A stretch of DNA of 64,000 bases from Arthrobacter sp. FW306-07-I (lineage in GTDB: Bacteria > Actinomycetota > Actinomycetes > Actinomycetales > Micrococcaceae), in the NCBI RefSeq assembly GCF_021800405.1, contig NZ_CP084550.1, forward strand, positions 2,170,001 to 2,234,000, in the 5' to 3' direction. A model generated the notes under the pieces. It worked only from the letters and a program-made list of their open reading frames with translations, had not been told where the DNA came from and made no database searches. The translations under genes were made by a program, and so were the position numbers. Shown piece by piece: positions 12,668-30,998 of this stretch; position 1 is the first letter of the stretch, and the number at the start of each line of letters is the position of its first letter.

Positions 12668-12750
12668 GCGCACGGCGGCACGGGGTCAACTGAGACTCAG
12701 CCTCACGGCTCCTGAGCTCCGACGCGCAATATGCCCGCAAGCGGTTCCTT

Positions 12751-13963: not shown

Positions 13964-14104
13964 GCCGTTCCCCAAACGGACACCCGGCATCTACCGGTGA
14001 TAGAACAACGCCAATACCGCTGCCATCCACAAGATAGCGGAAGCCTTCGGGTTGGGACCTCGGGAATCATTGACAGTTCGAGTGGTTCGAGGTCACCATG
14101 TCGC

Positions 14105-14722: not shown

Positions 14723-15152
14723 CTGCTGCCCATACATCGCACGTGTGTATTGAACTCCGCATAATTGGGCCGGGCTCCCCGTCGAGTGACTGTCGTGAGC
14801 CCAGGATCATCGATTTGTAGGTTCCAAGCCAGCGAAAGCGAAAGAATCTCCCATTCCGGGTTGCCTTCCCTAGGAGCTGCCCATTCTTCGCCGCTTTGGG
14901 TCCGAAGTCTAGGGGAGCCAGTTTTCGGCCCGGTAGGGGTTCCTCAAACGGGGCCGACGACTGCCATTTCAAGCTGCGATTTAACCGCCAAACGAGGTTA
15001 ACAATCACAGCCATGGCCGAACTGTTGTCTTCTTGAAGACTTACAGAGGTGTCATTGAAGTAAGTGGCCCGGTCATTGGCTTGAAGGCCGCGGGCGCCTA
15101 CCCTACGGAGGCTGTGTATGACGTACGCCGAGAAACAGCATTGAGGCGTCCG
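14723..15152. other. Gene-free stretch
   Basis: No convincing coding region or RNA on either strand; open frames here lack ribosome sites and normal protein composition. Confidence 0.4.
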
Positions 15153-15443
15153 CTATAGTTGCCGTCCACGGCGGTCCCACTCGGCCCTGCGAGCTTCCTC
15201 CTCATCCCAGAAGTGCTTGTCGTGGCGGCGAACGTAGAGCAGATAGGCAAGACCCGCCACGGCTGCGAGCATAGTGGCGAGCGACAGATAGTTGCCCGCG
15301 TCCCAGCCTCTCCCCTCAGTACCTCTGAGAACCAGAAAGATCACCTGTGTCATGGCCAGGAAAGCCCAGCAGACAAACAGGCCGCGGAAGCCTCCACGCG
15401 TCATCCTTGGCGCCAAGCGCTTTGGTCTTTCCGGGCCATCCAT
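15153..15443 (-). CDS. Small two-span membrane protein, unknown
   Basis: Up to 96 residues from ATG 15443 (MDGPERPKRL); the start is uncertain because no clear ribosome site is present. Two membrane segments (LFVCWAFLAMTQVIFLVL and YLSLATMLAAVAGLAYLLYV) are followed by a charged tail DKHFWDEEEARRAEWDRRG. Topology suggests both ends in the cytosol. Confidence 0.5.
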   Translation of the reverse strand: MDGPERPKRLAPRMTRGGFRGLFVCWAFLAMTQVIFLVLRGTEGRGWDAGNYLSLATMLAAVAGLAYLLYVRRHDKHFWDEEEARRAEWDRRGRQL

Positions 15444-15634
15444 GAACTGACCGTACAAGCCCCAGCTCGTTTTCGTAACAGGTACATCGGCGATGGCCTG
15501 GGAATTTCGTCCAAACCCGTTTGAGGGACGGCCAATAGTGAGCATGTCCCAGGTAGCCTCGACGCTCAACGCCGCAGGCGCCCGGTGAGGGATCCCGTAG
15601 CGGCCCTGGCAAACCCTCTCACTAAGCTCGATAC

Positions 15635-16090
15635 ATGCAGATTCGAGAGGCGACCTTGGGTGACCTGGGAAATGTGGGCGCGATCTGCGATGCCAGCGAC
15701 CGTGCACGCTGGACTTCGGAAATGATTACCCCGCTAACCGAGCGGATCGTGCTGGTCGCGACAATCCAAGATGAAGTTGTCGGCGTCGCCAAGACTCACT
15801 TCCATGGCGAACCGGATGGCAAAGCCCCTGCCGGCCATTACTTAGGGGGTGTCGTCGTCCCTCCGAATTCCCGCCGGCGAGGGATCGGGTCTGCACTCAC
15901 CCGCGCACGCATGGAGTGGACATGGACCCGGTCCTCGACCGTTTACTACTTCGCGAACGAACACAACGTGGCGTCCATTCGAATGCACCAGGCACTGGGT
16001 TTCCAGTCCGTTGGTCAGTTCACAGCGATTCGCGGTGTGAGAGCCGATGATGGGCGATCGGAATTAGTGCTCTTTCAAGCATGCCGATAG
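15635..16090 (+). CDS. GNAT-family N-acetyltransferase
   Basis: A 151-residue GCN5-type acetyltransferase. The acetyl-CoA loop is in VVPPNSRRRGIGSALTRARME (R-x-x-G-I-G), preceded by the beta-strand GHYLGGVVV and followed by YYFANEHNVASIRMHQALGFQ, the motif B/A ending of the fold. Substrate unknown. The last 27 bases overlap the convergent HAD gene. Weak ribosome site; transcription may begin near the start codon. Confidence 0.85.
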   Translation: MQIREATLGDLGNVGAICDASDRARWTSEMITPLTERIVLVATIQDEVVGVAKTHFHGEPDGKAPAGHYLGGVVVPPNSRRRGIGSALTRARMEWTWTRSSTVYYFANEHNVASIRMHQALGFQSVGQFTAIRGVRADDGRSELVLFQACR

Positions 16091-16834
16091 ACGATCGGTC
16101 ACGGGCGGGCGGCCGGGCAGCGCAAGCAACGCGGATTGATCAGACCGCATGGTTCCTGCGAGTAGCGACGGTAGTTCCGCGAGGCTTTGAATTGTTCCCT
16201 TGCGCTTGAAGCCGTCGCGATCAAGATGGAGGGCTTGGAGCCCAGCGTTCCTGGCCCCCTCAACGTCTACGCGGTAGTTGTCCCCGACGTACAGTGTCCC
16301 GGAAGGCAGTACATTCAAGCTTTGACAGGGCAAGGTGAAGGCCTCTGGTTCCGGTTTGGCATGGTTCATCAGTTCAGAGCTAAAGATCCCGTCCAGAAGT
16401 CCTTCGAGTCCTGTCCGGCTGATCTTCGCGGTCTGTTGCTTGTGATTCCCGTTGGTTACGACACCAACAGGCAAACCTATGGCGCGGATGCTCCTAAGGG
16501 TGGAAACTGCGTCTGGAAATGCCGTCCAGGCTTCCTCATAACTCTGGACGTACTTGGCGAAGAGTTCGTCCAGTTCCCAGTTCGTTGGGGGGACATCAGA
16601 ACCAGCCAAGGGGAGAAATTCTCGGAGTCGCTCACGGCGCTGTTCCTCGAAGGACAGCTCCTTCGCAAGGTAACGGTCGTAGTTAGCCTGCTCGATCCGA
16701 AACCACGCACTTGTTAGCTCTTGCGAACACCCCACCCCAACGTGTTCTAGGAAAAGGCGCACCCCAGTTCTGACTGATGCAGGATGGTCGAACAGAGTGT
16801 TGTCCAGGTCAAAGAGGACCGCTCGAATTTCCAC
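16064..16834 (-). CDS. HAD-superfamily hydrolase
   Basis: A 256-residue haloacid-dehalogenase-type phosphatase. Motif I is FDLDNTLFD at 8-16 with the nucleophilic Asp10, motif II VVTNGN, motif III KPEPEAF and motif IV YVGDNYRVDVEGARNAG. A helical cap lies between motifs I and II, as in YjjG/pyrimidine nucleotidase-like members. Its GTG start (16834) gives MEIRAVLFDLD. Likely a small-molecule phosphatase; substrate not visible. The 3' end overlaps the GNAT gene by 27 bases, possible only for convergent genes. Confidence 0.88.
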   Translation of the reverse strand: MEIRAVLFDLDNTLFDHPASVRTGVRLFLEHVGVGCSQELTSAWFRIEQANYDRYLAKELSFEEQRRERLREFLPLAGSDVPPTNWELDELFAKYVQSYEEAWTAFPDAVSTLRSIRAIGLPVGVVTNGNHKQQTAKISRTGLEGLLDGIFSSELMNHAKPEPEAFTLPCQSLNVLPSGTLYVGDNYRVDVEGARNAGLQALHLDRDGFKRKGTIQSLAELPSLLAGTMRSDQSALLALPGRPPVTDRLSACLKEH

Positions 16835-16888
16835 CCGCCCAGCGTACGGCGTTCATAGATGCCTTAGGACCGCCCATGTGACTAAACC

Positions 16889-16947
16889 GCACGATAAAGG
16901 ATCGGCTTAATGGAAAGCCCGCTCCGTGCAGCGACCGGCTTTACGGG
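16889..16947. repeat. Recurrent intergenic motifs, paired copy
   Basis: GCACGATAAAGGATCG at 16889-16904 and GACCGGCTTTACGGGC at 16932-16947. The first belongs to a family found at 17873, 20121, 22841 and 23291, the second to one found at 9788, 11385 and 20088. Confidence 0.45.
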
Positions 16948-17023
16948 CTGGGTGGAGTGAACGAGGACACCGCTCCGATCCAGATATTAGCCTCTCGAAA
17001 TCGGAGAGATTGGAAATCGGATG

Positions 17024-17374
17024 TTAGCCGGGCTCATTGTTCCTCAGGATTTGCAGGACCTCGCTCGGAGGCTCAGGGATCCGGCGGTCCTTGGAAACGC
17101 CCACCCAAACAACCCCGTGTTGATCAGGACGGCTGGTGGCACGACCAATTGGCTCCGCCATATTTATGGCCACATCACGGGCGAAGCCCTCAATGGTGCC
17201 ATCCGCCGCCGTTGAATTAAATACGAGCCGACGTCCCAGCACCACCGCGGGGTCGATAGTCCGGCAGTACACAACGCAGACTGTAGCCGGCCCGTCCTCC
17301 CAGTAGCCGAGAATGTTCACCTCATCCGCCCAGGAGCGGTCAATTTCCCTAATGATATGTTCAGCTAAATCCAT
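17024..17374 (-). CDS. Hypothetical protein
   Basis: A 116-residue soluble protein of unknown family, from ATG 17374 (MDLAEHIIREID) with GGATGGATCT upstream; GTG 17389 is an alternative. The sequence has ordinary globular composition, with FNSTAADGTIEGFARDVAINMAEPIG in the centre and no membrane segments. Chosen over the opposite-strand frame because its residue composition is more protein-like. No function can be proposed. Confidence 0.55.
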   Translation of the reverse strand: MDLAEHIIREIDRSWADEVNILGYWEDGPATVCVVYCRTIDPAVVLGRRLVFNSTAADGTIEGFARDVAINMAEPIGRATSRPDQHGVVWVGVSKDRRIPEPPSEVLQILRNNEPG

Positions 17375-17487
17375 AGATCCATCCAACACCGGACGCGCCG
17401 TGAGGAAAACGTGACTAGCCCTAGTATTGTGGCGCTCTCTCTCACGGCATACTCTTTGAGCCTGATCGTGAATTGGGGTGCGGTCGA

Positions 17488-17859
17488 ATGGCCGGAAAAA
17501 TCAGACTCTCGCTATTGGCCGTTACGCTATTGGCCGTCCTGGTTGCGTGCGCAGTTCCTGCCACTCCCATTACCGAAGCCTCCTCGGAGCCGCCGGCCCC
17601 CACCGCCGCTTCCGGCATCCCAACCATGCTTTACACCCATTGCGGAATTAAGGAATTGCGCGTCGACGACACATTCTTCCTCGCCGAAACACCACTGGAC
17701 GACGGCCAAGGCAATCCCCCTCCGGGTTGGGGAAACCCTTATCAGGCTGGCACTGTGACCGTGTCCGGCTCAAAAGCTGTATTTCGAGATGACAATGGCC
17801 ACGTCATCACTTTCCTTGCTCGTCCGGGTGCCACAGGTTTTCTCAATATCTGTTCCTAG
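17488..17859 (+). CDS. Putative lipoprotein, unknown
   Basis: A 123-residue secreted protein. The signal peptide MAGKIRLSLLAVTLLAVLVAC ends in the lipobox LVAC, predicting lipid attachment at the cysteine, followed by a proline/alanine-rich linker and a short globular domain with two cysteines (THCGIKEL and the C-terminal NICS) that could pair. Immediately after the stop is AAGCCGATGGGCTGCACGG, one of the recurrent 3'-end sequences of this region. Outer-face anchored; role unknown. Confidence 0.65.
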   Translation: MAGKIRLSLLAVTLLAVLVACAVPATPITEASSEPPAPTAASGIPTMLYTHCGIKELRVDDTFFLAETPLDDGQGNPPPGWGNPYQAGTVTVSGSKAVFRDDNGHVITFLARPGATGFLNICS

Positions 17860-17888
17860 AAGCCGATGGGCTGCACGGTAATGGATCC
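17857..17888. repeat. Recurrent 3'-end composite motif, copy
   Basis: Stop codon TAG, then AAGCCGATGGGCT (17860-17872), then GCACGGTAATGGATCC (17873-17888). Resembles 22824-22856 and, in its first part, 24439-24457. Confidence 0.5.
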
Positions 17889-18038
17889 TCCATCGACACA
17901 AGAGCGCACTGGCAGCATCGTAAAGGTTTGCGCAAGGTCGTTGCGTGTCCTCGCAGAGACGTTTAGCGTCGGAACACCATTCCTTAGGCCGGCTTTTGGT
18001 GACTGGCATTCGGAGTGAATCCCCGTACATAAAGGGGA

Positions 18039-18284
18039 ATGACAGTGGTGAGAGAAGCGCCGGGCCAGGGCAACAGACCTCTTATCCCGCCTGGGACGCC
18101 GAGGTGGCTTATTCCCGCCCTCGCCGCGATATTTGCGGTAGCGGCACTCGTTCTATTCGTGGTTGCCGCGACGTCGCATGGCGCTGTTCTCCCCAAGACA
18201 CTGTTACTCATAGGAGGACTAGCGTCTCTGCTGCTTGCCTTTCAGGTGGTGAGGGTGTGGCGGCAGAGTGGCAAGCCCAAGTGA
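18039..18284 (+). CDS. Small membrane protein, unknown
   Basis: Up to 81 residues with a proline-rich N-terminus and two membrane segments (WLIPALAAIFAVAALVLFVVAA and LPKTLLLIGGLASLLLAFQVV), ending in a basic tail. AAGGGG lies right before ATG 18039 and is better spaced for GTG 18045, so the true start may be two codons later. No family recognised. Confidence 0.6.
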   Translation: MTVVREAPGQGNRPLIPPGTPRWLIPALAAIFAVAALVLFVVAATSHGAVLPKTLLLIGGLASLLLAFQVVRVWRQSGKPK

Positions 18285-18388
18285 TAGGGCTGCCTCCGTT
18301 GTGTATACCTCCCTGGAGGAAAATGCAGTCCGTCTACGGCGTCGGTAAGGCTTCACGCGCGGTCCTGGATCTTCCTCGGGCTACGGCG

Positions 18389-18580
18389 CTACTCCCGGTA
18401 CTTATCGACGAGAAACTTATCGATTACACCTTGAATGCCAACAAGCGCGAGGATCAGAGCGAGCATCACGAATAGCTCAATCCCTGTGTGGCCCATTGCC
18501 AGGAGCAAAAGGAGTACGGACACCGCTGTAAAGACCATGAACCCAAACATGGTGCGCGTTGATTCTGACCGCCGTCGCAT
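18389..18580 (-). CDS. Small two-span membrane protein, unknown
   Basis: A 63-residue protein from ATG 18580 (MRRRSESTRT), with GGGAAGGG upstream. Two membrane segments (MFGFMVFTAVSVLLLLLAM and GIELFVMLALILALVGIQGV) and a charged end. Convergent with the preceding small gene. Function unknown. Confidence 0.6.
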   Translation of the reverse strand: MRRRSESTRTMFGFMVFTAVSVLLLLLAMGHTGIELFVMLALILALVGIQGVIDKFLVDKYRE

Positions 18581-18735
18581 CCGGGACGCCCTTCCCTGGA
18601 CATTCGCTTCACAAATTTTATCCCCGCGTCCAGCGAGGCGTCCAAGAAAGCAACGGTGACTGCCCGTATGCCGGTCGATCAACGCACCCTTCTGACCCTA
18701 TTTGAGAACGGATTCTCTGAGCGTACTGTGTGCTC

Positions 18736-19149
18736 ATGACGGGCGGTGCAGCGGGAGAAGCCAAGAAATACGAGTGGCAGTCCTGGCCGCCGGACTCGCT
18801 TGAAGGAATGCCGCCAAAACGTAGGCGGCTTGTTGCTTGGGGTCTTCTGTGGTTCCTCATTCTGGGCGCAGTTGTCGGGGGCCTACTTAGCGCAATCGGG
18901 CTCTCCGAACCGTGGCGTTCGTTGCTGGTCGCCGGAGTTCTAGCTGCAGTCTTCGTGCCCCTGATTCGTGCAGCCGTAGCGGAAGACCGACAACTTCGGG
19001 ATGAAGGGATAGATCTTCCTTCCCTCCCCGTCAGCCGAAAGTCGCTTGCTATCAACACAGCGTTAGCCTTCGCGCTTTGGATCCTGTACGCCGTATGGCT
19101 TTTATCGTCGAGGGAGCCGACGTTCCCGTTGCATACACCGTTTGGGTGA
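18736..19149 (+). CDS. Three-span membrane protein, unknown
   Basis: A 137-residue protein from ATG 18736 (MTGGAAGEAK) with hydrophobic segments LVAWGLLWFLILGAVVGGLL, SLLVAGVLAAVFVPLI and SLAINTALAFALWILYAVWLL, and a conserved-looking W-P-P-D-S-L-E-G-M-P-P start. No clear ribosome site, so it may be translated from a leaderless message. No family recognised. Confidence 0.6.
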   Translation: MTGGAAGEAKKYEWQSWPPDSLEGMPPKRRRLVAWGLLWFLILGAVVGGLLSAIGLSEPWRSLLVAGVLAAVFVPLIRAAVAEDRQLRDEGIDLPSLPVSRKSLAINTALAFALWILYAVWLLSSREPTFPLHTPFG

Positions 19150-19367
19150 CATATGAATTCATGCGTTTGAGAAGTCGCAAACGTGCAGAAGCCCACAGAC
19201 CAGATGGGCATTAGAGACTTCAACCTTGCCAACCCCGAAGAGCCCCGGGGTTCCACCATGTGTGTCGCGACGACCATTTGAGGCATCCCTTACCGGGCCT
19301 CGCACTTCAGGAGGATTACGGGTTTCGAGCCTCGCTACAACGGGACCAGGTCTAGTTAGGATTAGGG

Positions 19368-20030
19368 GTGACCACCCTAGCCACCTTGTGGCCACCCTTC
19401 GGATTAGTCCTCTCCACTCCACGGTTGGTTCTCCGACCGCTTCAAGATGGGGACTTGCCGGCGGCCGTGGAAGCCGCGGAGGCTGGCATACATCCCCAAG
19501 GGCAGATGCCTTTTTCGCATCCATGGACCGAGGCACGCCCTGAAGATCTTCCCGCAAACACTGCACGGCGAATTTGGCGTGCACGTGCTGAATCGACACC
19601 CGAGAAGTGGTCACTCCACTTCGGAGTCTGGAGAGGCAGCGATTTTGTCGGCTGTCAGGACTTGAGTGCCGAAGGGTTTGGCACTCTCAAGACAGTGTCA
19701 ACGGGCTCCTGGCTCCGCCAGGATGTTCATGGCAATGGCCTTGGCAAGGAAATGCGAACAGCCGTAATCATCTATGCCTTCGATTGGTTGAAGGCGGACA
19801 CCGCTGTTTCCGAGGCAGCAGTCTGGAACGCTTCTTCTCTAGGTGTTTCAAAATCTTTGGGTTATGAGCCCAACGGAATTTTCAGGGAATCATGGAAACC
19901 TGGGGAAGTAACAGAGGTTCAGTACCTGCGCCTCAGGTCGGACAGATTTATACGGCCCACCTGGAACCTAGACGTCAGAGGACACATACGTTCCGCAGAG
20001 TATCTCGGGATTCCTCTTAACGACGGATAG
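19368..20030 (+). CDS. GNAT-family N-acetyltransferase (RimJ/RimL type)
   Basis: A 220-residue acetyltransferase. The N-terminal LVLSTPRLVLRPLQDGDLP is typical for the RimJ/RimL-like subgroup; acetyl-CoA binding is marked by TGSWLRQDVHGNGLGKEMRTA and the fold closes with AAVWNASSLGVSKSLGYEPNGIF. GTG 19368 follows GGATTAGGG. These enzymes acetylate protein N-termini, antibiotics or small amines; the substrate is not predictable here. Confidence 0.85.
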   Translation: MTTLATLWPPFGLVLSTPRLVLRPLQDGDLPAAVEAAEAGIHPQGQMPFSHPWTEARPEDLPANTARRIWRARAESTPEKWSLHFGVWRGSDFVGCQDLSAEGFGTLKTVSTGSWLRQDVHGNGLGKEMRTAVIIYAFDWLKADTAVSEAAVWNASSLGVSKSLGYEPNGIFRESWKPGEVTEVQYLRLRSDRFIRPTWNLDVRGHIRSAEYLGIPLNDG

Positions 20031-20434
20031 GTTCGATGCCACTGTGATTCTGAGAAACCCACCCGCACTCACAAGGTGAATCGAGCGCCCGTAAGCCGGT
20101 GGTCGGCCGTGCACTTCAGAGCACGGTTATGGATCCTTCACCCCGCACCTGTCCGGTAGGCCGTCGGCGTACCGGCAACTCACGCGAATCCCTTGGGGCC
20201 CGATCGTCCCTGTCAGTCGCGAACGAACGGCGTATGCGGCGGTCTCCGTCCGAGACGCGCTCACGGGTTCGGTGCAGGTGTCTCGCCCCAAGGGCAGGTT
20301 ACATCCTTCCATTCTGCCCTGCTGTAGTCGAGTAATCCCTTGCTACGCTGGCAGGACGAGCCGTCGAATGCCTACATTGATTTGGTGGCAGTTTGGCTTG
20401 GCCAATGGGCTGTTTGAAGGGCAGCGGTGACGAC
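20031..20434. other. Gene-free stretch with recurrent motifs
   Basis: No gene. It carries CCCGTAAGCCGGTGGTC (20088-20104), a GTGC...GCAC small stem and GCACGGTTATGGATCC (20121-20136), all members of the intergenic motif families of this region. Confidence 0.5.
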
Positions 20435-20800
20435 GTGCGTTTCAAAATGAAGAGAATTCCGGCAATGATTTCTGGCTGGATCACAGGATCACTGGCGGGC
20501 GCTGGCATTATGGCCCTATTTGGCGGCTCGGGCGATAAGGACTTTTGGCCGGGTGTTTTCTCTCTATCGTTCTTCTTACTAACGATGCTCGTCTCTCAGT
20601 GGATTCGCGACGAAAAACCCAAACGCCGACGCGGGCTTTGGATAATGGCACTGGCACTCCTTGTTCCCGCGCTGATCCTCTGGTTAACATTCGGACCCGT
20701 GCCGGCGCTAGGAACACTAGTTGGGTCCCTTACGGTTGAGCTCATCATCACATGGCCTTACCTCACAGGTAAGGAAACAGTGCCAACAGGTGGCGGTTAG
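20435..20800 (+). CDS. Four-span membrane protein, unknown
   Basis: A 121-residue protein from GTG 20435 (MRFKMKRIPAMISG); ATG 20447 is possible. Hydrophobic segments: ISGWITGSLAGAGIMALF, PGVFSLSFFLLTMLVSQW, WIMALALLVPALILWLTF and LGTLVGSLTVELIITWPYL, with a basic loop EKPKRRRG between two and three. No family recognised. Confidence 0.6.
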   Translation: MRFKMKRIPAMISGWITGSLAGAGIMALFGGSGDKDFWPGVFSLSFFLLTMLVSQWIRDEKPKRRRGLWIMALALLVPALILWLTFGPVPALGTLVGSLTVELIITWPYLTGKETVPTGGG

Positions 20801-21027
20801 GAAAACAAGGCTGGACTCGACGTCAACGTCGTCTCGTTTCGCCAGCCATCTCTAGATCTGCGTCCCGCCCGCACATATGTGGAGCAGGGGACGCTGCTGC
20901 GCCCGCATGGGGATCGGCATACGCCGCGATTTTTGCGGGCCGAGGCGCGAGACAAAAGGGGGATGCGGTCAAAAGTCCTGGCACCCATACTGAAGCCAAG
21001 GTTCGAGGCAAATGAATTGGGGACGCC

Positions 21028-21426
21028 GTGAAAAATTACTCGATGGACGATGAATTCAACGTGGAAGGCGACGCGCACGCGGTGTCTGCGCAGATTCTGA
21101 CATCACTAGCTCAAGCGAAGCTGCACACCAGTCGAACCGAGGCTGGAATACAGGCCCGGGCCGGATCGGATTTTCTATTTCGTCTCCTAGGGACACCTTT
21201 GGGATCCAGCCATTTACCAGTCGGCGTTGACGTTCGGTTGATCTCCGCCAGGGACTACACCCGGGTGTCTGCCACCGCTTACGATCGCTTGGGCTGGTTC
21301 TTCAACAAGAAGCTCGTGTGGGGAGAGCATGTGATGGACCGAAAACTGACGGACCTTCTGAACGCAGTCCGAGCAGCAGCCAACAAATCACCACTCCCCG
21401 AACGAAAAGCTACGTTCAGTCCCTAA
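21028..21426 (+). CDS. Hypothetical soluble protein
   Basis: A 132-residue protein from GTG 21028, preceded by GGGGACGCC. It has no membrane segment; the central DVRLISARDYTRVSATAYDRLGW and AGSDFLFRLLGTP look like an alpha/beta fold. Composition is normal and the frame is well formed, but no family can be named. Confidence 0.6.
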   Translation: MKNYSMDDEFNVEGDAHAVSAQILTSLAQAKLHTSRTEAGIQARAGSDFLFRLLGTPLGSSHLPVGVDVRLISARDYTRVSATAYDRLGWFFNKKLVWGEHVMDRKLTDLLNAVRAAANKSPLPERKATFSP

Positions 21427-21551
21427 TCTCAGGCGGTCCGTTTTGGACAACCTGCCCTCTTAGCCCCGGATGAGGATCGTCCAACGGGTGGCGTTTTGTG
21501 CCAACTAACCTAGTTCAGAACCAGGCAGTTGCCTGGTCGGCCTCATGCTTG

Positions 21552-22052
21552 TCAGACTTCAGCGCAAGCCCCGCTAGGTACTGTGGGGTGTCCGAACAGG
21601 ACGAAAGTGGTGCCGTCATTCTCGAGAACCGAGATGTAGCTCGGGCCGAAAAGAGAGACTACTGATTCGCAGATGGTGATCGCGCTCTTGGCCTCCTCGC
21701 TACCATCGGCGCCGCGCGGGTCCACAAGGCTGGTTTCGATGCGAATTTTGCCCGGTTCGGTTTCGGTTACAGATTTGATTTTTCCCAACCATGGTGCGTT
21801 CTTTTTTGCTGTCTTGAAGTCGGCAGTCTTGTCCCGGCCGCCATTATTCACGCTGGCAATGGGGCCAGGTGGTGCAGCAGCTTGACTGGCTACCGTCTGG
21901 GCCGGCGTAGCCGCATTTGATGCCTTCTGCGGATCAGACGCTGAGCAGCCACAGAGCAGCGTGACAACAGCAGCTCCAACCAAACCGGACACCGGGAAAG
22001 AGATCCCGTTGGCATCTGACCGCCGTGCATTCCTCGATTTGTTCCGTTGCAT
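21552..22052 (-). CDS. Putative lipoprotein, unknown
   Basis: A 166-residue exported protein from ATG 22052 (MQRNKSRNAR), with GGGGGAC upstream. A basic N-terminus and FPVSGLVGAAVVTLLCGCS form a lipoprotein signal with lipobox LLCGC, followed by an alanine/proline linker and a globular domain (KKNAPWLGKIKSVTETEPGK, AKSAITICESVVSLFG). Surface-anchored, function unknown. Confidence 0.65.
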   Translation of the reverse strand: MQRNKSRNARRSDANGISFPVSGLVGAAVVTLLCGCSASDPQKASNAATPAQTVASQAAAPPGPIASVNNGGRDKTADFKTAKKNAPWLGKIKSVTETEPGKIRIETSLVDPRGADGSEEAKSAITICESVVSLFGPSYISVLENDGTTFVLFGHPTVPSGACAEV

Positions 22053-22295
22053 GTTCTTGTCCCCCAATATTTGCAACCGCACTAAGTGATGCTCGAGCCT
22101 TCAGCATCGCACCCGGAAATGCCTCCGTGAAGGGTTTTTAGAAGGGTAAGCGACTCCTACCCCCAACACAGTGAAGACCGCTCTGCTGGTACCCAGTGAT
22201 GGATGGGCGCCCGATCTGGGGCAGGCATGGAGTCCTCCACCAAATTGCATTCTCGTTTTCCGCGCCTCGCGCTCAAATCAACGTATGGTGTGGGC

Positions 22296-22826
22296 ATGGA
22301 AGAGGAGGACGCTGCCGGCGGTGGGACTCCAGAGCAAGTACTGGCTCTGATCACCTTGGTGGAGTCGTCCGGCTGGCCCACTGCTGCACTTGAGCAAGAT
22401 AGCTACTTTCAGAAGCTTGGACTACGACAACTTCCCGGAGCTCCGCAGGAGGGAGCACCACCGGCAGTCGTCGGAGGGGTCGTCGCTGATTCCGCATCGA
22501 CAACTCCAATAGGCTCCTGGATGACACATGAAGGCGAACTGGTTGGGATCAGCCTCTTTTTTCAGGATGAGCAGGACAGATCAGACGCGCGAACTTCTGA
22601 TTTGTTCGGCTCTATACACTCCCTGATTCGCCGAAAATATGGAGAACCGTTGGACGACGCGGTTCAACCATCGGGCAACGCGTCGGCCCTTTGGAAGGTC
22701 CGCGGAACAGCTATCGAGCTCTACAGACACGTCAAGCCGTCCTTTGCTATCCAGGTCGGGCTCAACAACATAGAGCGCGCTTCAGCTCGCAACGACGGGA
22801 AGCTACCGGGAACCTGGAACCACTAA
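22296..22826 (+). CDS. Hypothetical protein (possible immunity-type)
   Basis: A 176-residue soluble acidic protein from ATG 22296 (MEEEDAAGGG); ATG 22227 is an in-frame alternative. It has PEQVLALITLVESSGWPTAALEQD near the start and YRHVKPSFAIQVGLNN near the end. The length, acidity and location among unrelated small genes recall contact-toxin immunity proteins, but no homologous family was recognised and this is only a suggestion. The stop codon opens the motif TAAGCACGATAGGCGG. Confidence 0.55.
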   Translation: MEEEDAAGGGTPEQVLALITLVESSGWPTAALEQDSYFQKLGLRQLPGAPQEGAPPAVVGGVVADSASTTPIGSWMTHEGELVGISLFFQDEQDRSDARTSDLFGSIHSLIRRKYGEPLDDAVQPSGNASALWKVRGTAIELYRHVKPSFAIQVGLNNIERASARNDGKLPGTWNH

Positions 22827-22857
22827 GCACGATAGGCGGCGTGCGGTGAAGGATCCG
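22824..22857. repeat. Recurrent 3'-end composite motif, copy
   Basis: Stop codon TAA, then GCACGATAGGCGGC and GTGCGGTGAAGGATCCG, matching the layout at 17857-17888. Confidence 0.5.
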
Positions 22858-23012
22858 GAAATGACTGCTCTGACCTTCCAGAAATCGGGGGCGATGATGA
22901 CGTGGCACCGAGAGATCGCCATAGCCACTAGGCCGAAAAAGTGATCAGCGCAGGGCCATTGGTTTGCGCGGACAAGTAGGATGTGAGGACCCAGCGCAGG
23001 GAGGATACTGCA

Positions 23013-23261
23013 ATGCTTCAGGCCCTACGGCGCTACTTTCGAACCGCCATGCGCTTCCCGAAGCGGTCCCTGTCTTATCTGCGATCCATGAGGACCAGCG
23101 GCCTTGTACTGGGGATCGCGTGGCTCGTTCTAGCGATGATATGGGTAAACCCGTTGAGGACGACCTTGTTGGTCACCGTTAGTCTCGGCTTTCTTCTGCA
23201 AGCGGTTTTAGTCAACAAGGAGATACGTCGCCGCGAAAACACAGTCGACGAACCTCTCTAA
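23013..23261 (+). CDS. Small two-span membrane protein, unknown
   Basis: An 82-residue protein from ATG 23013 (MLQALRRYFR), backed by AGGGAGG about eight bases upstream. A very basic N-terminus is followed by two membrane segments (SGLVLGIAWLVLAMIWV and LRTTLLVTVSLGFLLQAVLV). GCGGTGAAGGATCGG follows the stop at 23293-23307. Function unknown. Confidence 0.65.
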   Translation: MLQALRRYFRTAMRFPKRSLSYLRSMRTSGLVLGIAWLVLAMIWVNPLRTTLLVTVSLGFLLQAVLVNKEIRRRENTVDEPL

Positions 23262-23353
23262 TGACAAATCTGCTTTCCAATCCTGGCTGGTAGCGGTGAA
23301 GGATCGGTCACTGAATGCGGCACCGTTGCAATAGGCAACTTCGGCCGCCGGCC

Positions 23354-23710
23354 TCATGAGACTGAGAACACCTCAAGCGCCTTCGGCCAAAGGACCACAT
23401 AACGTTCTTCACCTACCGGCCTATATGCCGCGCGTACGCTGGCCCATCGCCAGTCAGTCCCCAGTGTCGTCCTCGCGTGCTGAAAGGCTTCTAGCGGTCG
23501 ATCCGTTTCAATGAAGATATTCATTTCGCCAGCGCCAAAGTCGTGCCCGTCTACGACGCCGTATGCATCAAGGAGACCAGACTGAAGCAAGTCCTCCATT
23601 GAGATAAGCGCATCAAAGTCGACATCAGATGTTGCTGGCCACTGCAAAACCAAGATGTATTTCCGGGCTGCATGTTCCCTGGACATCGCACGACCCCGAG
23701 CATTAGCCAT
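23354..23710 (-). CDS. Hypothetical protein
   Basis: A 118-residue protein from ATG 23710 (MANARGRAMS). YILVLQWPATSDVDFDALISM, GLLDAYGVVDGHDFGAGEMN and IFIETDRPLEAFQHART suggest a small ferredoxin-like alpha/beta domain, as seen in many uncharacterised cassette proteins. No family name can be given. Confidence 0.55.
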   Translation of the reverse strand: MANARGRAMSREHAARKYILVLQWPATSDVDFDALISMEDLLQSGLLDAYGVVDGHDFGAGEMNIFIETDRPLEAFQHARTTLGTDWRWASVRAAYRPVGEERYVVLWPKALEVFSVS

Positions 23711-23793
23711 GAGTGGAGTCTTTCACTTCTTGTGAGCCGCAGGGAGACAGCTCGCCTGACTTGAAGTCGTCCTATTAGGGATCCTTACCTGGA

Positions 23794-24441
23794 ATGATGA
23801 GAAGCATGGCTGCTTCCCGTCCCGATCCCCAGGCTCGCCTTGAAGGCGCCGTCGTCGTTCTTCGCGAGCTGATCGAGAATGACCTCCCGGCCCTATTCAC
23901 AGCCATCGGAAAACCCGAGATATTCGCTGGTGGCTGGGGAGGAGGTATGGGGGCATATCGCGAGAACTTCGGGCAGTGGTCGGAGTTTTTGAGGCAATGG
24001 CTGCCCTGGCAACAAGGCAACGTGTACGCCGTGTGTCTGCTTTCATTGGATGACCGGGTGATTGGCACCACCACGCTCGGCGATTTCGACTTGAAAAATG
24101 AGTCTGCGCATATCGGCTGGACGGCGTATTCCCCGGACGTCTGGGGAAGCGGGGTGAACGCTGACGCCAAGCGGCTCCTGCTGGGCACGGCCTTCACCCA
24201 TGGATTTGAGCGGATCAGATTGCAGGCCGACGTACTAAACGTTCGGTCGCGGGCGGCGATAGAGCGGATCGGCGCCCAAAAAGAAGGCGTGCTCAGACAT
24301 GTCCAACGGCGTGCGGATGGCAGTTGGCGAGACACGGCCGTTTACTCTGTTCTACGCGAGGAATGGCCCCATGTACGCAGTTTCCTCGATGAGCGTTTAG
24401 CAGCCCGGCCGGCGTGCTCCAGCTATAACCCGTCTCCGTAA
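23794..24441 (+). CDS. GNAT-family N-acetyltransferase (RimJ/RimL type)
   Basis: A 215-residue acetyltransferase. VVVLRELIENDLPALFTA opens the fold; VIGTTTLGDFDLKNESAHIGW is the central sheet; acetyl-CoA binding spans YSPDVWGSGVNADAKRLLL; the end shows LQADVLNVRSRAAIERIGA, typical of the family. The stop codon is part of TAAGCCGATCGGCTTGCGG (24439-24457), a short palindrome related to sequences after other genes here. Substrate unknown. Confidence 0.85.
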   Translation: MMRSMAASRPDPQARLEGAVVVLRELIENDLPALFTAIGKPEIFAGGWGGGMGAYRENFGQWSEFLRQWLPWQQGNVYAVCLLSLDDRVIGTTTLGDFDLKNESAHIGWTAYSPDVWGSGVNADAKRLLLGTAFTHGFERIRLQADVLNVRSRAAIERIGAQKEGVLRHVQRRADGSWRDTAVYSVLREEWPHVRSFLDERLAARPACSSYNPSP

Positions 24442-24850: not shown

Positions 24851-27259
24851 TTAGATGCTAGCCGCCTGACGGCCGGCGGAGACCCTCGTGAGGAAGTCCT
24901 CGACTACGGCCGCGAACTCGTCAGGCCGTTCGATCTGCGGCATGTGCCCGGTCTTGGCGAAGACGTGCGACTCGGCGCGGGGCAGCGCCGCGGCGGCCGC
25001 TTCAAGGTGGCTGAACGGCAGGATGTGGTCGTGGTCGCCCCACACCACCAGCGCCGGAACGTCTGACCTGGCGAGCGCGCCGATCAGAGCGGTGCGCCAC
25101 TCAGCCCGGACACCGGAAATCGTTCCCAGGTCGCGGGCGACGTCGACCAGCGTCCGGCGGTGCGCCTCCCGCTGCGACAGGGCGAGCGCGTGGCCGATGC
25201 GGTCGTCCGTGACCAGCGTCTTGTCGTAGAAGAGCGACTGTACCGTCCGGCGTGATGCTTTCTCGTCGGGCCGCAGGAGCAGGGCCGCGAGCGGGCGGAC
25301 CGCAAGGAGGCGAAGGACCAGTGCCACTTCCTGGCCGAATCCGGCGCTGTTGGCCAGCACGAGCGCGGAGACGCGGTCCGGATGGTCGGCGGCCAGCTTC
25401 ATGGCGACGGCACCGCCGAGCGAGTTGCCCATCACGGGCAGCGGCCCGGAAACCCCGACGGCGTCCAGGAAGGCCGGCAGGATCCCGGCCAGCTTCGCGA
25501 GCGTCGTAGTGCCGGGGAGCCGTTCGGAGTACGCGAAGCCGGGAAGGTCGACGCTGTAGACCGTGTGGCGGTCCGAGAGCCGATCGTGCTGTTCGTTCCA
25601 GTCCTCGAGGCTCTGGCCGATGCCGTGCAGCAGCAGCACCGGATCCCCGCTGCCGGTGTTCCGGTAGCGCAGGCGTGTCCCCGCGACGGTGACATGGCGC
25701 GTCCCCGGCAATGCGAGGGGATCCCGGGCCGGGGCGGCGGGTTGCCGGACAGTTTCCCGCGCCGGCTGCCCCCGCCGGCCGAACCGGACGTGGTCGGTCA
25801 GCCGGCCGGCCCGGAGCAGGGCGAAATCGCGGAAGTAGTTCTGGTGCAGCCGCCACGGCGAGCCTGCGCCCTGCCGGGGCAACTGGTCGGCGCCGCGGAA
25901 AATGTAGCCGGCCTTCAGGTCGATCAGCGAGGACAGCGAGCCGTTGGCGACGTCGGCGGGTGCCGCGGGTACCACCCACTGAAGGTTCCGGCGGTCCAGA
26001 TGCTTGATCAGCCTGCAGATGTACCCGGCGACCAGGTCCGCCTTCAGGGTCCAGGACGCGTTGGTGTAGCCGATGGTGAGGGCGAAATTCGGGACCCCCT
26101 CCAGCATCATGCCCTTGTAGGTTAGAGTCCTGCCAACGTCCACAGGCTCGCCGTCGACGGAGAGCTTCATGCCGCCGATCACCAGCAGGTTCAGTCCCGT
26201 GGCCGTGACAATGACGTCGGCGGGCAGCGATGTGCCGGAGGCCAGGTCAATCCCGTCCGGGGTGATCCGGGAAATCGTGTCGGTCACGATCTCGGCAGTG
26301 CCGGCACTGATGGCCCGGTACAGGTCCCCGTTGGGGATCGCGCAGACCCGCTGGTCCCACGGCTGGTACGACGGGGCCAGGTGCGTGTCCACCGGGAAGC
26401 CCGCCGGCAGTTTGGCTACTGCCGACTTGCGCAGGATCGCCTTCATCGTCTCGGGCCGCCGTCGGCTGAGCTGGTAGGTGAACATGGAGAAAAGAATGTT
26501 CTTGGAACGTACGACGTCGTACGCCAGTTGCGCGGGCAGCTTGCCTCGGAGGCGGTCGGCCAGGTGGTCCCGCGCGGGCACGGGGGCGATGTAGGTGGGG
26601 GAGCGCTGCAGCATCGTTACCTTGGCGGCCGACTTTGCCATGGACGGCACCAGCGTCACGGCCGTGGCGCCGCTGCCGATGACCACCACCTGCTTTCCCT
26701 CATAGTCGAGGTCGGCCGGCCAGTGCTGCGGGTGGACGATCGTTCCGGCAAAGGTGTCGGCCCCGTCGATGGCCGGGGTGAAGCCCTCGTCATAGCGGTA
26801 GTAGCCGGAACAGACGGACAGGAACGAGCAGGTGAAGGTGAGTGGCTCGGGGGAGGAGGCGGTGTCGCCGGACCGGAACTCGCCCCCGGACGTGTGGACC
26901 GCCGTCACGGTCCACAGTGCGGTTTCGCTTGACCATGAGGCGGAAATGACCCTGGTGTTCAGCCGGATCCGCGGCGCCAGGCCCTCGTCGGCGACCGTTG
27001 CCTCGATGTACTCGCGGATGGACTCGCCGTCCGCGATCGCCTTGGCGCCGGCCCAGGGCCGGAAGGAGTAGCCGAGCGTGTACATGTCGCTGTCGGACCG
27101 GATCCCGGGGTACCGGAACAGGTCCCAGGTACCCCCGACGGCGTTCCTCGACTCCACTACGGTGAAGGTTTTTCCGGGTACCTCGCGCTTCAGCCGGCTG
27201 GCGAAACCCACACCGCTCAGCCCGGCGCCGACAATCAACACATCTACGTGCTCGCTCAT
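24851..27259 (-). CDS. Baeyer-Villiger monooxygenase fused to an alpha/beta hydrolase
   Basis: An 802-residue two-domain protein. Residues 1-515 are a class B flavin monooxygenase: FAD-binding GAGLSGVG at 11-18, the Baeyer-Villiger fingerprint FAGTIVHPQHWP at 170-181 and the NADPH-binding GSGATA at 195-200, as in EthA-like enzymes. After a proline/alanine linker (about 495-520), residues 520-800 are an alpha/beta hydrolase: oxyanion LLHGIG at 543-548, nucleophile Ser613 in GNSLGG, acid Asp744 in GDHDHILP and His772 in TGHMPQ. The first domain would turn a ketone into an ester, the second would hydrolyse it. Divergent TetR gene at 27329. Substrate unknown. Confidence 0.9.
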   Translation of the reverse strand: MSEHVDVLIVGAGLSGVGFASRLKREVPGKTFTVVESRNAVGGTWDLFRYPGIRSDSDMYTLGYSFRPWAGAKAIADGESIREYIEATVADEGLAPRIRLNTRVISASWSSETALWTVTAVHTSGGEFRSGDTASSPEPLTFTCSFLSVCSGYYRYDEGFTPAIDGADTFAGTIVHPQHWPADLDYEGKQVVVIGSGATAVTLVPSMAKSAAKVTMLQRSPTYIAPVPARDHLADRLRGKLPAQLAYDVVRSKNILFSMFTYQLSRRRPETMKAILRKSAVAKLPAGFPVDTHLAPSYQPWDQRVCAIPNGDLYRAISAGTAEIVTDTISRITPDGIDLASGTSLPADVIVTATGLNLLVIGGMKLSVDGEPVDVGRTLTYKGMMLEGVPNFALTIGYTNASWTLKADLVAGYICRLIKHLDRRNLQWVVPAAPADVANGSLSSLIDLKAGYIFRGADQLPRQGAGSPWRLHQNYFRDFALLRAGRLTDHVRFGRRGQPARETVRQPAAPARDPLALPGTRHVTVAGTRLRYRNTGSGDPVLLLHGIGQSLEDWNEQHDRLSDRHTVYSVDLPGFAYSERLPGTTTLAKLAGILPAFLDAVGVSGPLPVMGNSLGGAVAMKLAADHPDRVSALVLANSAGFGQEVALVLRLLAVRPLAALLLRPDEKASRRTVQSLFYDKTLVTDDRIGHALALSQREAHRRTLVDVARDLGTISGVRAEWRTALIGALARSDVPALVVWGDHDHILPFSHLEAAAAALPRAESHVFAKTGHMPQIERPDEFAAVVEDFLTRVSAGRQAASI

Positions 27260-27280
27260 GCCGCCAAGCTATCGACTTAA

Positions 27281-27306
27281 TGTTGAGATAGTCAACACCG
27301 TGTTGA
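27281..27306. promoter_or_regulatory. Candidate TetR operator between the monooxygenase and its regulator
   Basis: TGTTGA-N5-TCAACA (27281-27297) is a perfect inverted repeat, and a third TGTTGA follows at 27301-27306. It lies in the 69-base gap between the two divergent start codons, where a TetR repressor would block both promoters. Confidence 0.65.
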
Positions 27307-27328
27307 GAACCGGGGCTAGGATGGGCGC

Positions 27329-27961
27329 ATGGCTCAAAGAGGAAGACGCAGCGCGAGGGTTTCGGGCGATGAGCGCCAGGACGCAATCCTGGTCACCGCC
27401 GAGGCCCTCCTGGCAAACCGTGCCTTTGACGAGGTCTCCATCGAGGATCTGGCCCGGGGTGCCGGCATTTCGCGCCCCACTTTTTACTTCTACTTCCCCT
27501 CGAAAGATGCCGTGCTGCTGGCCCTGCTGGACCGGGTTATCAACGAGGTCGAGCACCGGGTGGGGCACCTGCCGCGCGATTTCGAGAGCGACCCCGCGGG
27601 TGCGTGGACCCGTTCCATCGGAATGTTCGTTGAGGTGTTTGTCTCTCACCGCGGTGTGTCGACCGCCGCCATCGGGGCGCGCACCCGAAACGACGAGGTG
27701 CGCGGGCTGTGGTCCAGGTCGATGCAGTCCTGGGTCGACTTCTCAAGCGACGTTATCCGTGCCGAGCAGGCCCGCGGGGCCGCGCCGGCGGGCACCGACG
27801 CGCACGACCTCGCGGTGAGCCTGAACCTGATGAACGAACGGGTCATTACTGCTGCCCTCAACCGGGAGAGTCCTGCCATCGCGGAGACCGCCGCCCTGGA
27901 CATCCTGTCAACCATCTGGATCCGCAGTATCTACGGGTCCGACAACCCCGGCGGCCGCTAA
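27329..27961 (+). CDS. TetR-family regulator (EthR-like)
   Basis: A 210-residue repressor. The N-terminal helix-turn-helix spans about 19-65, with AFDEVSIEDLARGAGISRP and FYFYFPSKDAVL, a classic TetR DNA-binding end; the rest is the helical ligand domain. Divergence from a monooxygenase with an EthA-type fingerprint, and the inverted repeat between them, suggest control of the ketone pathway by its substrate or a product. It is followed 24 bases later by the dehydrogenase gene, likely co-transcribed. Confidence 0.9.
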   Translation: MAQRGRRSARVSGDERQDAILVTAEALLANRAFDEVSIEDLARGAGISRPTFYFYFPSKDAVLLALLDRVINEVEHRVGHLPRDFESDPAGAWTRSIGMFVEVFVSHRGVSTAAIGARTRNDEVRGLWSRSMQSWVDFSSDVIRAEQARGAAPAGTDAHDLAVSLNLMNERVITAALNRESPAIAETAALDILSTIWIRSIYGSDNPGGR

Positions 27962-27985
27962 GGCCGGCGCCGAAAGGAAACCATA

Positions 27986-28840
27986 ATGCCCTCCATCAAG
28001 ACGCTCACCGTGCTCGGCACAGGGGTGCTCGGCTCCCAGATCGCCTTCCAGGCCGCATTCCACGGTTTCGCAGTCACCGCCTACGACGTCGATGAGGACG
28101 CACTTGCCAAGGCGCGGGACCGTTTCGCCCGCCTCGCCGGCATCTACCGGGCACAGATTGCCGGCGCCTCCGAGGGCAAGACCGAAGCAGCCCTGGCAAA
28201 CCTCCGCCTCACCGCAGACCTGGGGGACGCCGTCGTCGACGCGGACCTTGTGATCGAAGCCGTTCCCGAACTGCTGGAACTCAAACGCGACGTCTACCGC
28301 AAGCTCGCGGAACTGGCGCCGGCCAAGGCCATCTTCGCGACCAACTCATCCACCCTGCTGCCCAGTGACCTGAAAGACTTCACCGGACGCCCGGACCGCT
28401 TCCTCGCGCTCCATTACGCCAACAACATCTGGGCGCAGAACATCGCCGAGGTCATGGGCACCGCGGAGACGGACCCGGCGGTGTACGCGGCTGTCGTCGA
28501 CTTTGCCCGGAACAGCGGACTGGAACCGATCGAGATCAAGAAGGAGAAGGCCGGCTACGTCCTGAACTCGCTGCTGGTTCCGCTGCTGAACGCGGCCGCC
28601 GGACTGCTGCTTCAGGGCGTCGCCGACCCGTGCACCATTGACAAGACCTGGCGCATCGCCACGGGGGCCCCGAGCGGACCGTTCCAGATCTACGACGTCG
28701 TCGGCCTGACCACGGCGTACAACATCGCCTCGGCCTCGCCGGATGCCGGTTCCCAGGCGTTCGCCCAGTACCTGAAGGAGCACTACATCGACCAGGGCAA
28801 GCTGGGGGTCGCCTCGGGGGAGGGCTTCTACAAGTACTGA
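27986..28840 (+). CDS. 3-hydroxyacyl-CoA dehydrogenase family protein
   Basis: A 284-residue NAD-dependent dehydrogenase. VLGTGVLGSQIA (9-20) is the Rossmann GxGxxG; DLVIEAVPELLELK, FATNSSTLLPSDL and RFLALHYANNIW hold the active-site Ser and His of the 3-hydroxyacyl/3-hydroxybutyryl-CoA dehydrogenase fold; GYVLNSLLVPLLNAA starts the C-terminal helical domain. The usual HFFNP is HYANN here, so the substrate may differ from straight 3-hydroxyacyl-CoA. AAAGGAAACC precedes the ATG. Probably in the same operon as the TetR gene. Confidence 0.85.
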   Translation: MPSIKTLTVLGTGVLGSQIAFQAAFHGFAVTAYDVDEDALAKARDRFARLAGIYRAQIAGASEGKTEAALANLRLTADLGDAVVDADLVIEAVPELLELKRDVYRKLAELAPAKAIFATNSSTLLPSDLKDFTGRPDRFLALHYANNIWAQNIAEVMGTAETDPAVYAAVVDFARNSGLEPIEIKKEKAGYVLNSLLVPLLNAAAGLLLQGVADPCTIDKTWRIATGAPSGPFQIYDVVGLTTAYNIASASPDAGSQAFAQYLKEHYIDQGKLGVASGEGFYKY

Positions 28841-29424: not shown

Positions 29425-29871
29425 ATGCCCATCAAACTTGAGAACGTCGGAATCGCGGTTCGTGACCTGGAAGAGGCCATCGCGTTCTTCACTGACCTCG
29501 GGCTTACGGTCCTGGTCCGTGACACCGTCAGCGGGGAGTGGGCCGACACCGCCGTGGGCCTTGACGGCAACCACGCAAAAATCGCAGTGCTCCAGACCCC
29601 GGACGGCAGAGGCCAGCTTGAGCTCTTCGAGTACATCCATCCTGCCGCCATCGACACACACCCCACACTGCCGAACGAAATCGGAATGCACCGCGTTGCC
29701 TTCTCGGTCGACGACATTGACGCCGCGCTGGAGATCGCCGCGAAGCATGGATGCCACCCGCTGCGGGGCGTCGCAACCTACGGAGACATTTACAAGCTGA
29801 CTTACGTCCGTGGTCCCAGCGGCATCATTGTGATGTTCGCCCAGGAACTCAAGAAGTCCACCGGAAACTGA
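29425..29871 (+). CDS. VOC-family (glyoxalase/bleomycin resistance fold) protein
   Basis: A 148-residue vicinal-oxygen-chelate protein with two beta-alpha-beta-beta-beta halves: NVGIAVRDLEEAIAFFTDLG then LELFEYIHP, and MHRVAFSVDDIDAALEI then YVRGPSGIIVMFAQEL. Candidate metal ligands include His in GMHRVAF and Glu in LELFEY. The family covers lyases, dioxygenases and binding proteins; which one applies is not evident. Single gene with its own promoter. Confidence 0.85.
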   Translation: MPIKLENVGIAVRDLEEAIAFFTDLGLTVLVRDTVSGEWADTAVGLDGNHAKIAVLQTPDGRGQLELFEYIHPAAIDTHPTLPNEIGMHRVAFSVDDIDAALEIAAKHGCHPLRGVATYGDIYKLTYVRGPSGIIVMFAQELKKSTGN

Positions 29872-29993: not shown

Positions 29994-30998
29994 GTGAGCG
30001 GCGGGCTCGTCGCCCTGCTGGACGACGTCGCCGCCCTGGCCCGCATCGCGGCAGCCTCGGTAGACGATGTGGCAGCCGGTGCCGCCAAGGCTGGTACCAA
30101 GGCCGCCGGCGTCGTAATTGACGACGCCGCCGTCACCCCGCAGTACGTGTCCGGGGCGGACCCGTCGCGCGAGCTGCCCATGATCAAGAAGATCTTCTGG
30201 GGCTCCATCCGGAACAAACTCCTGATCATTCTCCCGGCGCTCCTGCTGATCAGCGCCTTCATCCCTTGGATCATCCCGTTCATCCTGATGCTGGGCGGCA
30301 CGTACCTCTGCTATGAGGGCGCGGAGAAGGTCTGGCACAAGCTGCGCGGCGGCCACCATGAGGCCGAGGAAGCGCCGGCTGTGGAACGCGGGCATGACGC
30401 GGAGGCCACTGTCGTCAAGGGCGCTATCACCACCGACTTCATCCTGTCCTGCGAAATCATGGTCATCTCCATGAACGAGGTGGCGACGGAATCCATTTGG
30501 GTCCGGGCTTTCATTCTGGTCCTGGTGGCGATTGCCATCACAGTGCTTGTGTACGGCGCCGTCGGGCTGATCGTGAAGATGGACGATATTGGAGTCCATC
30601 TTGCCGCCAAGGATTCTGCGCGCGCCAAGCGCTTTGGCCACCTCCTGGTAAGGGGCATGCCGGCCGTACTGGCTGCGATTACCTTCGTGGGAACGATCGC
30701 GATGCTCTGGGTAGGCGGCCACATTATGGTGCAGGGGGCACACGACCTTGGCTGGCACGCGCCCTATGACTTGATCCACGCACTCGAGCACCCGGTGGCG
30801 GGCGTTGCCGTTGTTGGCGGCTTCCTGGCCTGGCTCGTGGACACCCTGTGCTCAGCGGTGATCGGGCTCGCCTGGGGCCTGGTGGTCATGGCTGTCATTG
30901 GCCCGCTGCTGAAAGTGCTGCCCTTCGGCAAGGCGAAGGATCACGGGCACGGCGCGGCAGGAGAAACGCCCGACGGCGGTGGTCCCGCGGGCCATTAG
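29994..30998 (+). CDS. DUF808/YedI-family membrane protein
   Basis: A 334-residue inner-membrane protein. The N-terminal SGGLVALLDDVAALARIAAA and AAGVVIDDAAVTPQYVSG are diagnostic of DUF808, followed by several spans (NKLLIILPALLLISAFIP, ILMLGGTYLCYEGAEKV, AFILVLVAIAITVLVYGAVG, and two more to the end). GTG 29994 is preceded by GGAGGCCACCT. The E. coli relative YedI is uncharacterised; transport has been guessed for the family but not shown. Confidence 0.88.
   Translation: MSGGLVALLDDVAALARIAAASVDDVAAGAAKAGTKAAGVVIDDAAVTPQYVSGADPSRELPMIKKIFWGSIRNKLLIILPALLLISAFIPWIIPFILMLGGTYLCYEGAEKVWHKLRGGHHEAEEAPAVERGHDAEATVVKGAITTDFILSCEIMVISMNEVATESIWVRAFILVLVAIAITVLVYGAVGLIVKMDDIGVHLAAKDSARAKRFGHLLVRGMPAVLAAITFVGTIAMLWVGGHIMVQGAHDLGWHAPYDLIHALEHPVAGVAVVGGFLAWLVDTLCSAVIGLAWGLVVMAVIGPLLKVLPFGKAKDHGHGAAGETPDGGGPAGH

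Follow-up and report, generated by a model that had tools for sequence, protein, structure and literature searches.

Dehydrogenases, Baeyer-Villiger monooxygenases (BVMOs) and hydrolases are combined in the degradation clusters chnABC, cpnABC, acmAB and mekAB. For subterminal alkane oxidation in Thalassolituus, the excerpt of PMC6304351 gives a model in which an alcohol is oxidised to a ketone and the ketone to an ester, which is then split into an acid and an alcohol. A further described system is the mycobacterial EthA/EthR pair, where the gene of a prodrug-activating BVMO is divergent from that of its TetR-family repressor, which has an EthR_C domain. According to the excerpt of PMC5403819 it is unknown what EthA does physiologically, and the excerpt of PMC9044951 does not settle this question for mycobacterial BVMOs. 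Tethering of a BVMO to a consecutive enzyme has been engineered by fusing an alcohol dehydrogenase to cyclohexanone monooxygenase (excerpt of PMC5624969). Here we analysed a stretch of 64,000 nucleotides of Arthrobacter sp. FW306-07-I (NZ_CP084550.1, positions 2,170,001 to 2,234,000; the window), in which an EthA-type BVMO and an alpha/beta-hydrolase (ABH) are encoded as one polypeptide. The degradation clusters and the alkane route share with the window the three enzyme types and their proposed chemical order, but they employ separate proteins, whereas the window encodes one BVMO-hydrolase chain together with an EthR-like regulator. The engineered chain is man-made and carries the upstream enzyme, whereas the window fusion is natural and carries the downstream one.

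With a probability of about 0.68 we take the fused gene to encode a two-step enzyme that forms and splits an ester, as part of a secondary-alcohol/ketone route under EthR-type control. In this route a diketoreductase-like enzyme would convert a secondary alcohol into a ketone. The BVMO domain would turn the ketone into an ester or lactone, and the hydrolase domain of the same chain would cleave the ester into a carboxylic acid and an alcohol. The EthR-like protein would repress both transcription units via palindromes in the 69-bp gap between the divergent genes. All three enzyme types lie together within 24851-28840 (Table 1), and similar sets occur in some split relatives. The domains, the pathway logic and the EthR control are of known kinds. 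Among the open-licence papers listed (titles and starts of abstracts) we found no report of a natural BVMO-hydrolase fusion or its repeated origin, nor of an EthR palindrome shared across actinobacteria or an exchange of the dehydrogenases.

Table 1. Features of the fused locus, in coordinates of the window.
Feature	Position	Strand	Basis
Fused gene, EthA-type BVMO + ABH, 802 aa	24851..27259	-	frame, Pfam, homologue alignment
BVMO domain, residues 1-494	25778..27259	-	Pfam, sequence and fold matches
BVMO fingerprint FAGTIVHPQHWP, residues 170-181	26717..26752	-	alignment of 121 sequences
R304 in WDQR	26348..26350	-	same residue in 121/121; presumed equivalent of an active-site Arg
Interdomain linker, residues 495-519	25703..25777	-	length variable; low model confidence
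ABH domain, residues 520-795	24875..25702	-	Pfam, fold matches
Nucleophile S613 (GNSLGG)	25421..25423	-	alignment
Triad acid D744	25028..25030	-	alignment
Triad H772	24944..24946	-	alignment
Predicted EthR operator: palindrome TCAACA-CGG-TGTTGA + degenerate second copy	27270..27306	-	pattern scan, conservation
EthR-like TetR-family gene, divergent from the fusion	27329..27961	+	EthR match, Pfam EthR_C
Diketoreductase-like member of the 3-hydroxyacyl-CoA dehydrogenase family	27986..28840	+	PDB and NCBIfam matches; 24 bp after the TetR gene

The fusion frame runs from an ATG at 27259 to a stop codon at 24851 without any internal stop. This confirms the single frame of the initial annotation, which had not given the strand (minus). 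Pfam matches on the protein were NAD_binding_8 (residues 9-57), FMO-like (146-224) and Abhydrolase_1 (540-779, 1.5e-30). The glycine motifs GAGLSG (11-16) and GSGATA (195-200) flank the fingerprint, which follows the type I BVMO pattern FxGxxxHxxxW[P/D]. In the alignment of 121 sequences (P0001-P0121) F170 was found in 119 and G172, H176, W180 and P181 in 120 sequences, while W301, D302 and R304 were invariant. R304 may correspond to the active-site arginine of known BVMOs (R337 of phenylacetone monooxygenase); the motif WD[QE]R was present in four of five EthA-like loci (see below), L157 being without a match. A Foldseek search with the BVMO domain gave a best E value of 8e-29, and the 50 matches listed were either BVMOs by title or proteins such as OTEMO and polycyclic ketone monooxygenase, which are also BVMOs. 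In the hydrolase half S613 was found in all 121 sequences and D744 and H772 in 120, such that a Ser-Asp-His triad with a nucleophile elbow is encoded on an alpha/beta-hydrolase fold. The previously assigned positions of fingerprint and triad were all correct. Both halves are under purifying selection, and 24851-27259 encodes one intact two-domain chain.

The initial annotation had further suggested that the fusion channels its substrate. The AlphaFold model consists of two confident domains, but their mutual placement is not fixed, given a pTM of 0.64 and a pLDDT below 50 for the linker residues 503-510. Substrate channelling is conjectural, and a rigid channel finds no backing in the model. 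The region equivalent to residues 488-529 varies in length from 27 to 66 residues across the aligned sequences. The likely benefit of the fusion is a fixed stoichiometry and the closeness of both domains.

How widespread the fusion is was followed at several levels. A protein search scored at least 7997 relatives, of which 120 were listed; 119 of these are 750-849 aa long and the remaining one 633 aa. Among the matches listed, homologues with the same fusion (63-97% identity) came from many records, and many were named Arthrobacter, Pseudarthrobacter, Subtercola, Cryobacterium or Frondihabitans. The architecture is already reflected in automatic database naming: some entries are called after the two halves together ("CzcD-associated flavoprotein CzcO/pimeloyl-ACP methyl ester carboxylesterase"), others read "alpha/beta fold hydrolase" and one "FAD-containing monooxygenase EthA". 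Among the GTDB loci (the best 80 of 314), both domains were in one frame in 32 (L009-L040), while the others had separate genes or lacked such an ABH. All but one of the 32 loci lie inside the clade of the window, whose branch had an SH-aLRT of 88 in the BVMO tree and a support of 99/96 in the ABH tree.

Within the family of the window, 9 of 245 genomes contained an uninterrupted window-type fusion (54-100% identity) and one more a copy with an internal stop. A second, more distant fusion type (41-45% identity) occurred in 11 of the 245, one of them shared with the nine. When the survey was extended to the class, the matches listed (from 394 genomes) included none across both domains except the window's own. 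Forty additional regions were hand-picked from these two surveys. The view of the initial annotation that such a single chain is uncommon has to be qualified accordingly, since the fusion recurs in Micrococcaceae and Microbacteriaceae with several changes on the tree. Two copies are disturbed, by sequencing error or decay: in L020 (Arthrobacter liuii) the frame is 763 aa long with the hydrolase match split in two pieces, and L170 (G479) has its internal stop in the BVMO half.

To follow the origin of the fusion we built a tree of 120 BVMO domains, leaving out L170, and a tree of 64 hydrolase domains. Four changes between the fused and the split state are required on the BVMO tree, on which window-type fusions stand in three places and the second type in one (support 100). 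The hydrolase tree returned the same three places for the window type. A single origin of the window-type fusion was rejected, as placing its 36 rows in one clade gave a p-AU of 6.9e-5 and this clade appeared in 0% of 200 bootstrap ABH trees. The second type (L161-L166, L193 and L194) belongs to the same bacterial family and has intact motifs. Scans of L161 and L164 showed BVMO and Abhydrolase_1 within a single frame, and GxSxG and GMGH motifs of its own were present in 8/8 loci examined. Its hydrolase gave 27-30% identity where any match was obtained, and it comes from another lineage, as seen from its very long separate branch on the ABH tree (100/100).

In six split loci (L059, L063, L074, L185, L186 and L189) BVMO and hydrolase are neighbouring genes in different frames, and in all of these except L063 the BVMO stop was found to overlap the likely hydrolase start (e.g. 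ATGA in L074). In L063, which is likewise split, the frames overlap too; of all rows outside the window's clade it stands closest to it on the BVMO tree (98), whereas its place is left unresolved by the ABH tree. On the BVMO tree the fused L040 is the sister of L074, which is split, and L186 follows; L040 and L169 are one and the same 81,028-bp contig, and this fusion case represents one strain. To fuse an overlapping pair of this kind, a small indel or the loss of a single stop codon would suffice, and loss of the stop codon between overlapping neighbours is the most likely origin of the fusion. Trees alone cannot separate gain from loss, but the different hydrolase of the second type and the state of the split relatives favour gain.

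The ease of such a mutation, given the overlapping stop-start pairs in split relatives, together with the variable linker, would also suit a neutral read-through that brought no functional gain. We consider this improbable, since one fused clade employs a hydrolase of another lineage and the window type has been kept across Micrococcaceae and Microbacteriaceae.

The gene facing the fusion had been called a TetR regulator. This family call holds and can be made more precise, as the protein is a relative of EthR: it scored 207 bits (1.8e-60) against EthR in the PDB, contains Pfam EthR_C (PF21313, 1.2e-40) and shares with PDB EthR the letter-identical stretch GISRPTFYFYFPSK. In divergent arrangement and type of regulator the locus thus corresponds to EthA/EthR. 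EthR_C matches were obtained in 58 of 296 genomes of the phylum. Four distant EthR_C regulators (L107, L108, L109 and L111) are adjoined by a hydrolase match of 24-27% identity and had no BVMO match within 3.3 kb.

The gap between the divergent genes contains TCAACACGGTGTTGA and a weaker second copy. Within the window the combined two-copy pattern matched only in that gap, and it matched in 0 of 100 shuffles. The exact palindrome has a single site in the 4.56-Mb genome, and a reversed control pattern has three sites per strand, so that the frequency of the palindrome alone proves nothing. Evidence for the operator comes instead from the two-copy pattern and from conservation. For the latter, a motif derived from the gaps of the fused family was scored on all 54 divergent-EthR gaps, source gaps included. 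TCRACANNNTGTYGA was found within two mismatches in 54/54 gaps and exactly in 45; with plain letter shuffles as control, shuffled gaps were equally good in 0.06% of cases on average. Judged by sequence, the window appears to share its putative intergenic operator with the EthA/EthR locus. A scan of 27200-27400 for sigma-70 consensus promoters found none.

In five of the 54 gaps EthR faces a 489-aa BVMO that is 49-54% identical to the BVMO domain of the window, and the palindrome of the window recurs there within two mismatches. By eye, the gene after this BVMO resembles rraA, which belongs to the M. tuberculosis ethA neighbourhood, and these are therefore probably mycobacterial EthA/EthR loci. 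No adjacent hydrolase, short-chain dehydrogenase/reductase (SDR) or diketoreductase-like gene was seen in them at the set thresholds; in L195 an ABH match of 27% identity lies some 5 kb away. With the BVMO alone, their surroundings give no hint at a pathway. The BVMO of the window, unlike theirs, is fused to a hydrolase and accompanied by a dehydrogenase-family partner.

This partner, a protein of 284 aa, had been named a 3-hydroxyacyl-CoA dehydrogenase. The family is right, yet its nearest match was diketoreductase (4dyd), with 417 bits over the whole length. Acyl-CoA dehydrogenases of the superfamily scored lower, with 288 bits for 6kq9, which is named 3-hydroxybutyryl-CoA dehydrogenase, and then 141 bits for 3hdh, and we rank an acyl-CoA role below ketone/alcohol redox.

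For the neighbourhoods of the BVMO we examined 121 loci. The thresholds were at least 50% identity, same strand and a distance of up to 2.5 kb for SDR genes, at least 45% at any position of the locus for diketoreductase-like genes and at least 40% for EthR, such that more distant partners are missed; L040 was scored without EthR merely through an upstream-extended start codon, the TetR match being present. An SDR was near the BVMO in 38 loci and a diketoreductase-like gene in 30. No locus had both, compared with 9.4 expected for independent occurrence, related loci not being independent draws. On the tree the two states required four changes. The fused Rathayibacter loci L030 and L039 have an SDR in place of the diketoreductase-like gene, and in L171 a zinc alcohol dehydrogenase gene overlaps. 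In L046, L052 and L057 the BVMO and a diketoreductase-like gene are followed 16-34 bp on by a separate hydrolase gene, of the Abhydrolase_3 type in the two scanned. Split BVMO-SDR-ABH cassettes of Micromonospora and other actinomycetes resemble the window in their BVMO (about 60% identity), their ABH (about 50%) and, in some, a divergent EthR-like regulator, but they consist of three genes with an SDR replacing the diketoreductase-like one. In three Micromonosporaceae-like loci (L044, L054 and L172) the SDR is followed by a convergent frame which, on visual inspection, is similar to cryptochrome/photolyase-related proteins.

A dehydrogenase, a hydrolase or both thus recur beside this BVMO type even where it is unfused, which backs the consecutive chemistry envisaged by the initial annotation. 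Each partner seems to be exchangeable while its function, alcohol/ketone redox or ester cleavage, is kept, and because of this the order alcohol, ketone, ester, acid plus alcohol is proposed.

A different order would result if the hydrolase split carbon-carbon (C-C) bonds and worked ahead of the BVMO or alongside it. A beta-diketone made by the diketoreductase-like enzyme would then be cleaved by the hydrolase, and a ketone released in this way would be oxidised by the BVMO. The closest folds of the hydrolase domain are indeed C-C hydrolases (DxnB2 34.0, CarC 33.7, CumD 32.5 and BphD 32.4), its best PDB sequence matches are HsaD/BphD, and diketoreductase acts on diketo esters according to the excerpt of PMC4114983. 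Close behind follow a lipase (32.7), an esterase (32.5) and an epoxide hydrolase (32.4), and haloalkane dehalogenases matched too, such that the fold is not decisive. Considering also the separate hydrolase after the dehydrogenase, esterase-type in both loci scanned, and the SDR in 38, compared with the diketoreductase-like gene in 30, of the loci with a recognised dehydrogenase, we regard this order as distinctly unlikely.

About as little credit can be given to a role in xenobiotic or stress defence. Like EthA acting on thioamide prodrugs, the BVMO would then form S- or N-oxides or render reactive ketones harmless, while unrelated esters would be the substrates of the hydrolase. EthA activates ethionamide and other thiocarbamides, which suggests a broad specificity (excerpt of PMC5403819), and the EthR-like regulator with its palindrome would agree with such a role. 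Such a role leaves the BVMO-hydrolase fusion in several separate lineages and the alternation of dehydrogenases unexplained. That two genes were joined by an error of assembly or sequencing, for which only the neighbouring genes in different frames of the six split loci could be cited, or that the frame is a pseudogene, can be dismissed given the homologue lengths, the 31 fused loci of the window's clade, the conserved catalytic residues and the selection on both halves.

Several results weigh against the secondary-alcohol/ketone route. The hydrolase fold also suits C-C hydrolases, which head the fold matches, epoxide hydrolases and haloalkane dehalogenases, and the domain arrangement is left unfixed by the AlphaFold model. 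For the dehydrogenase, the second-best PDB match (6kq9) would suit an acyl-CoA substrate, and NCBIfam assigns it to 3-hydroxyacyl-CoA dehydrogenase (PRK08293, 405 bits at a cut-off of 312). Neither dehydrogenase was found in 53 of the 121 loci, five of them in the window's own clade (L019, L033, L034, L037 and L038), and at the set thresholds none of the eight second-type fusions had an SDR, a diketoreductase-like gene or EthR recognised beside it. EthR_C is moreover not confined to BVMO loci, as a BVMO match within 3.3 kb was obtained for 7 of 30 loci examined, counting that of the window.

If the ester-forming and ester-splitting route holds, the window cassette points to what precedes and what follows the BVMO reaction, beside a related regulator and the same palindrome. 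Tentatively, and with more doubt than confidence, one may go further and see in it the purpose of EthA/EthR. EthR would then sense the ester made by the BVMO, and the fused hydrolase would be both the next step and an off-switch that destroys the inducer. Mycobacterial EthA would be what is left of the middle part of a secondary-alcohol route of actinobacteria, whose ketone-to-ester-to-acid step would have been fused about four times, once with another hydrolase. An ester as EthR signal fits the finding, in the excerpt of PMC5403819, that the ligand in EthR crystals was hexadecyl octanoate, an ester with which EthR is unable to bind its target DNA. A Micrococcaceae host would make the natural role of EthA, with substrate, product and inducer, approachable outside the tuberculosis germ, and the repeated fusions offer natural models for cascades in which the product of a BVMO is removed by the cascade itself.

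Downstream of the cassette lie a VOC/glyoxalase-type gene (29425-29871) and a gene for a DUF808 protein (29994-30998), which by eye are not beside the cassette in L009, L022 and L024. The window contained no tRNA genes and no PADLOC match to anti-phage defence. The GC content of positions 10001-24000 is 0.54-0.59 compared with 0.62-0.71 elsewhere in the window, and the third-position GC of the called frames is 0.59-0.68 at 15-24.4 kb compared with 0.77-0.90 at 24.8 to 40 kb. This low-GC tract stops shortly ahead of the fused gene's 3' end and is possibly acquired DNA.
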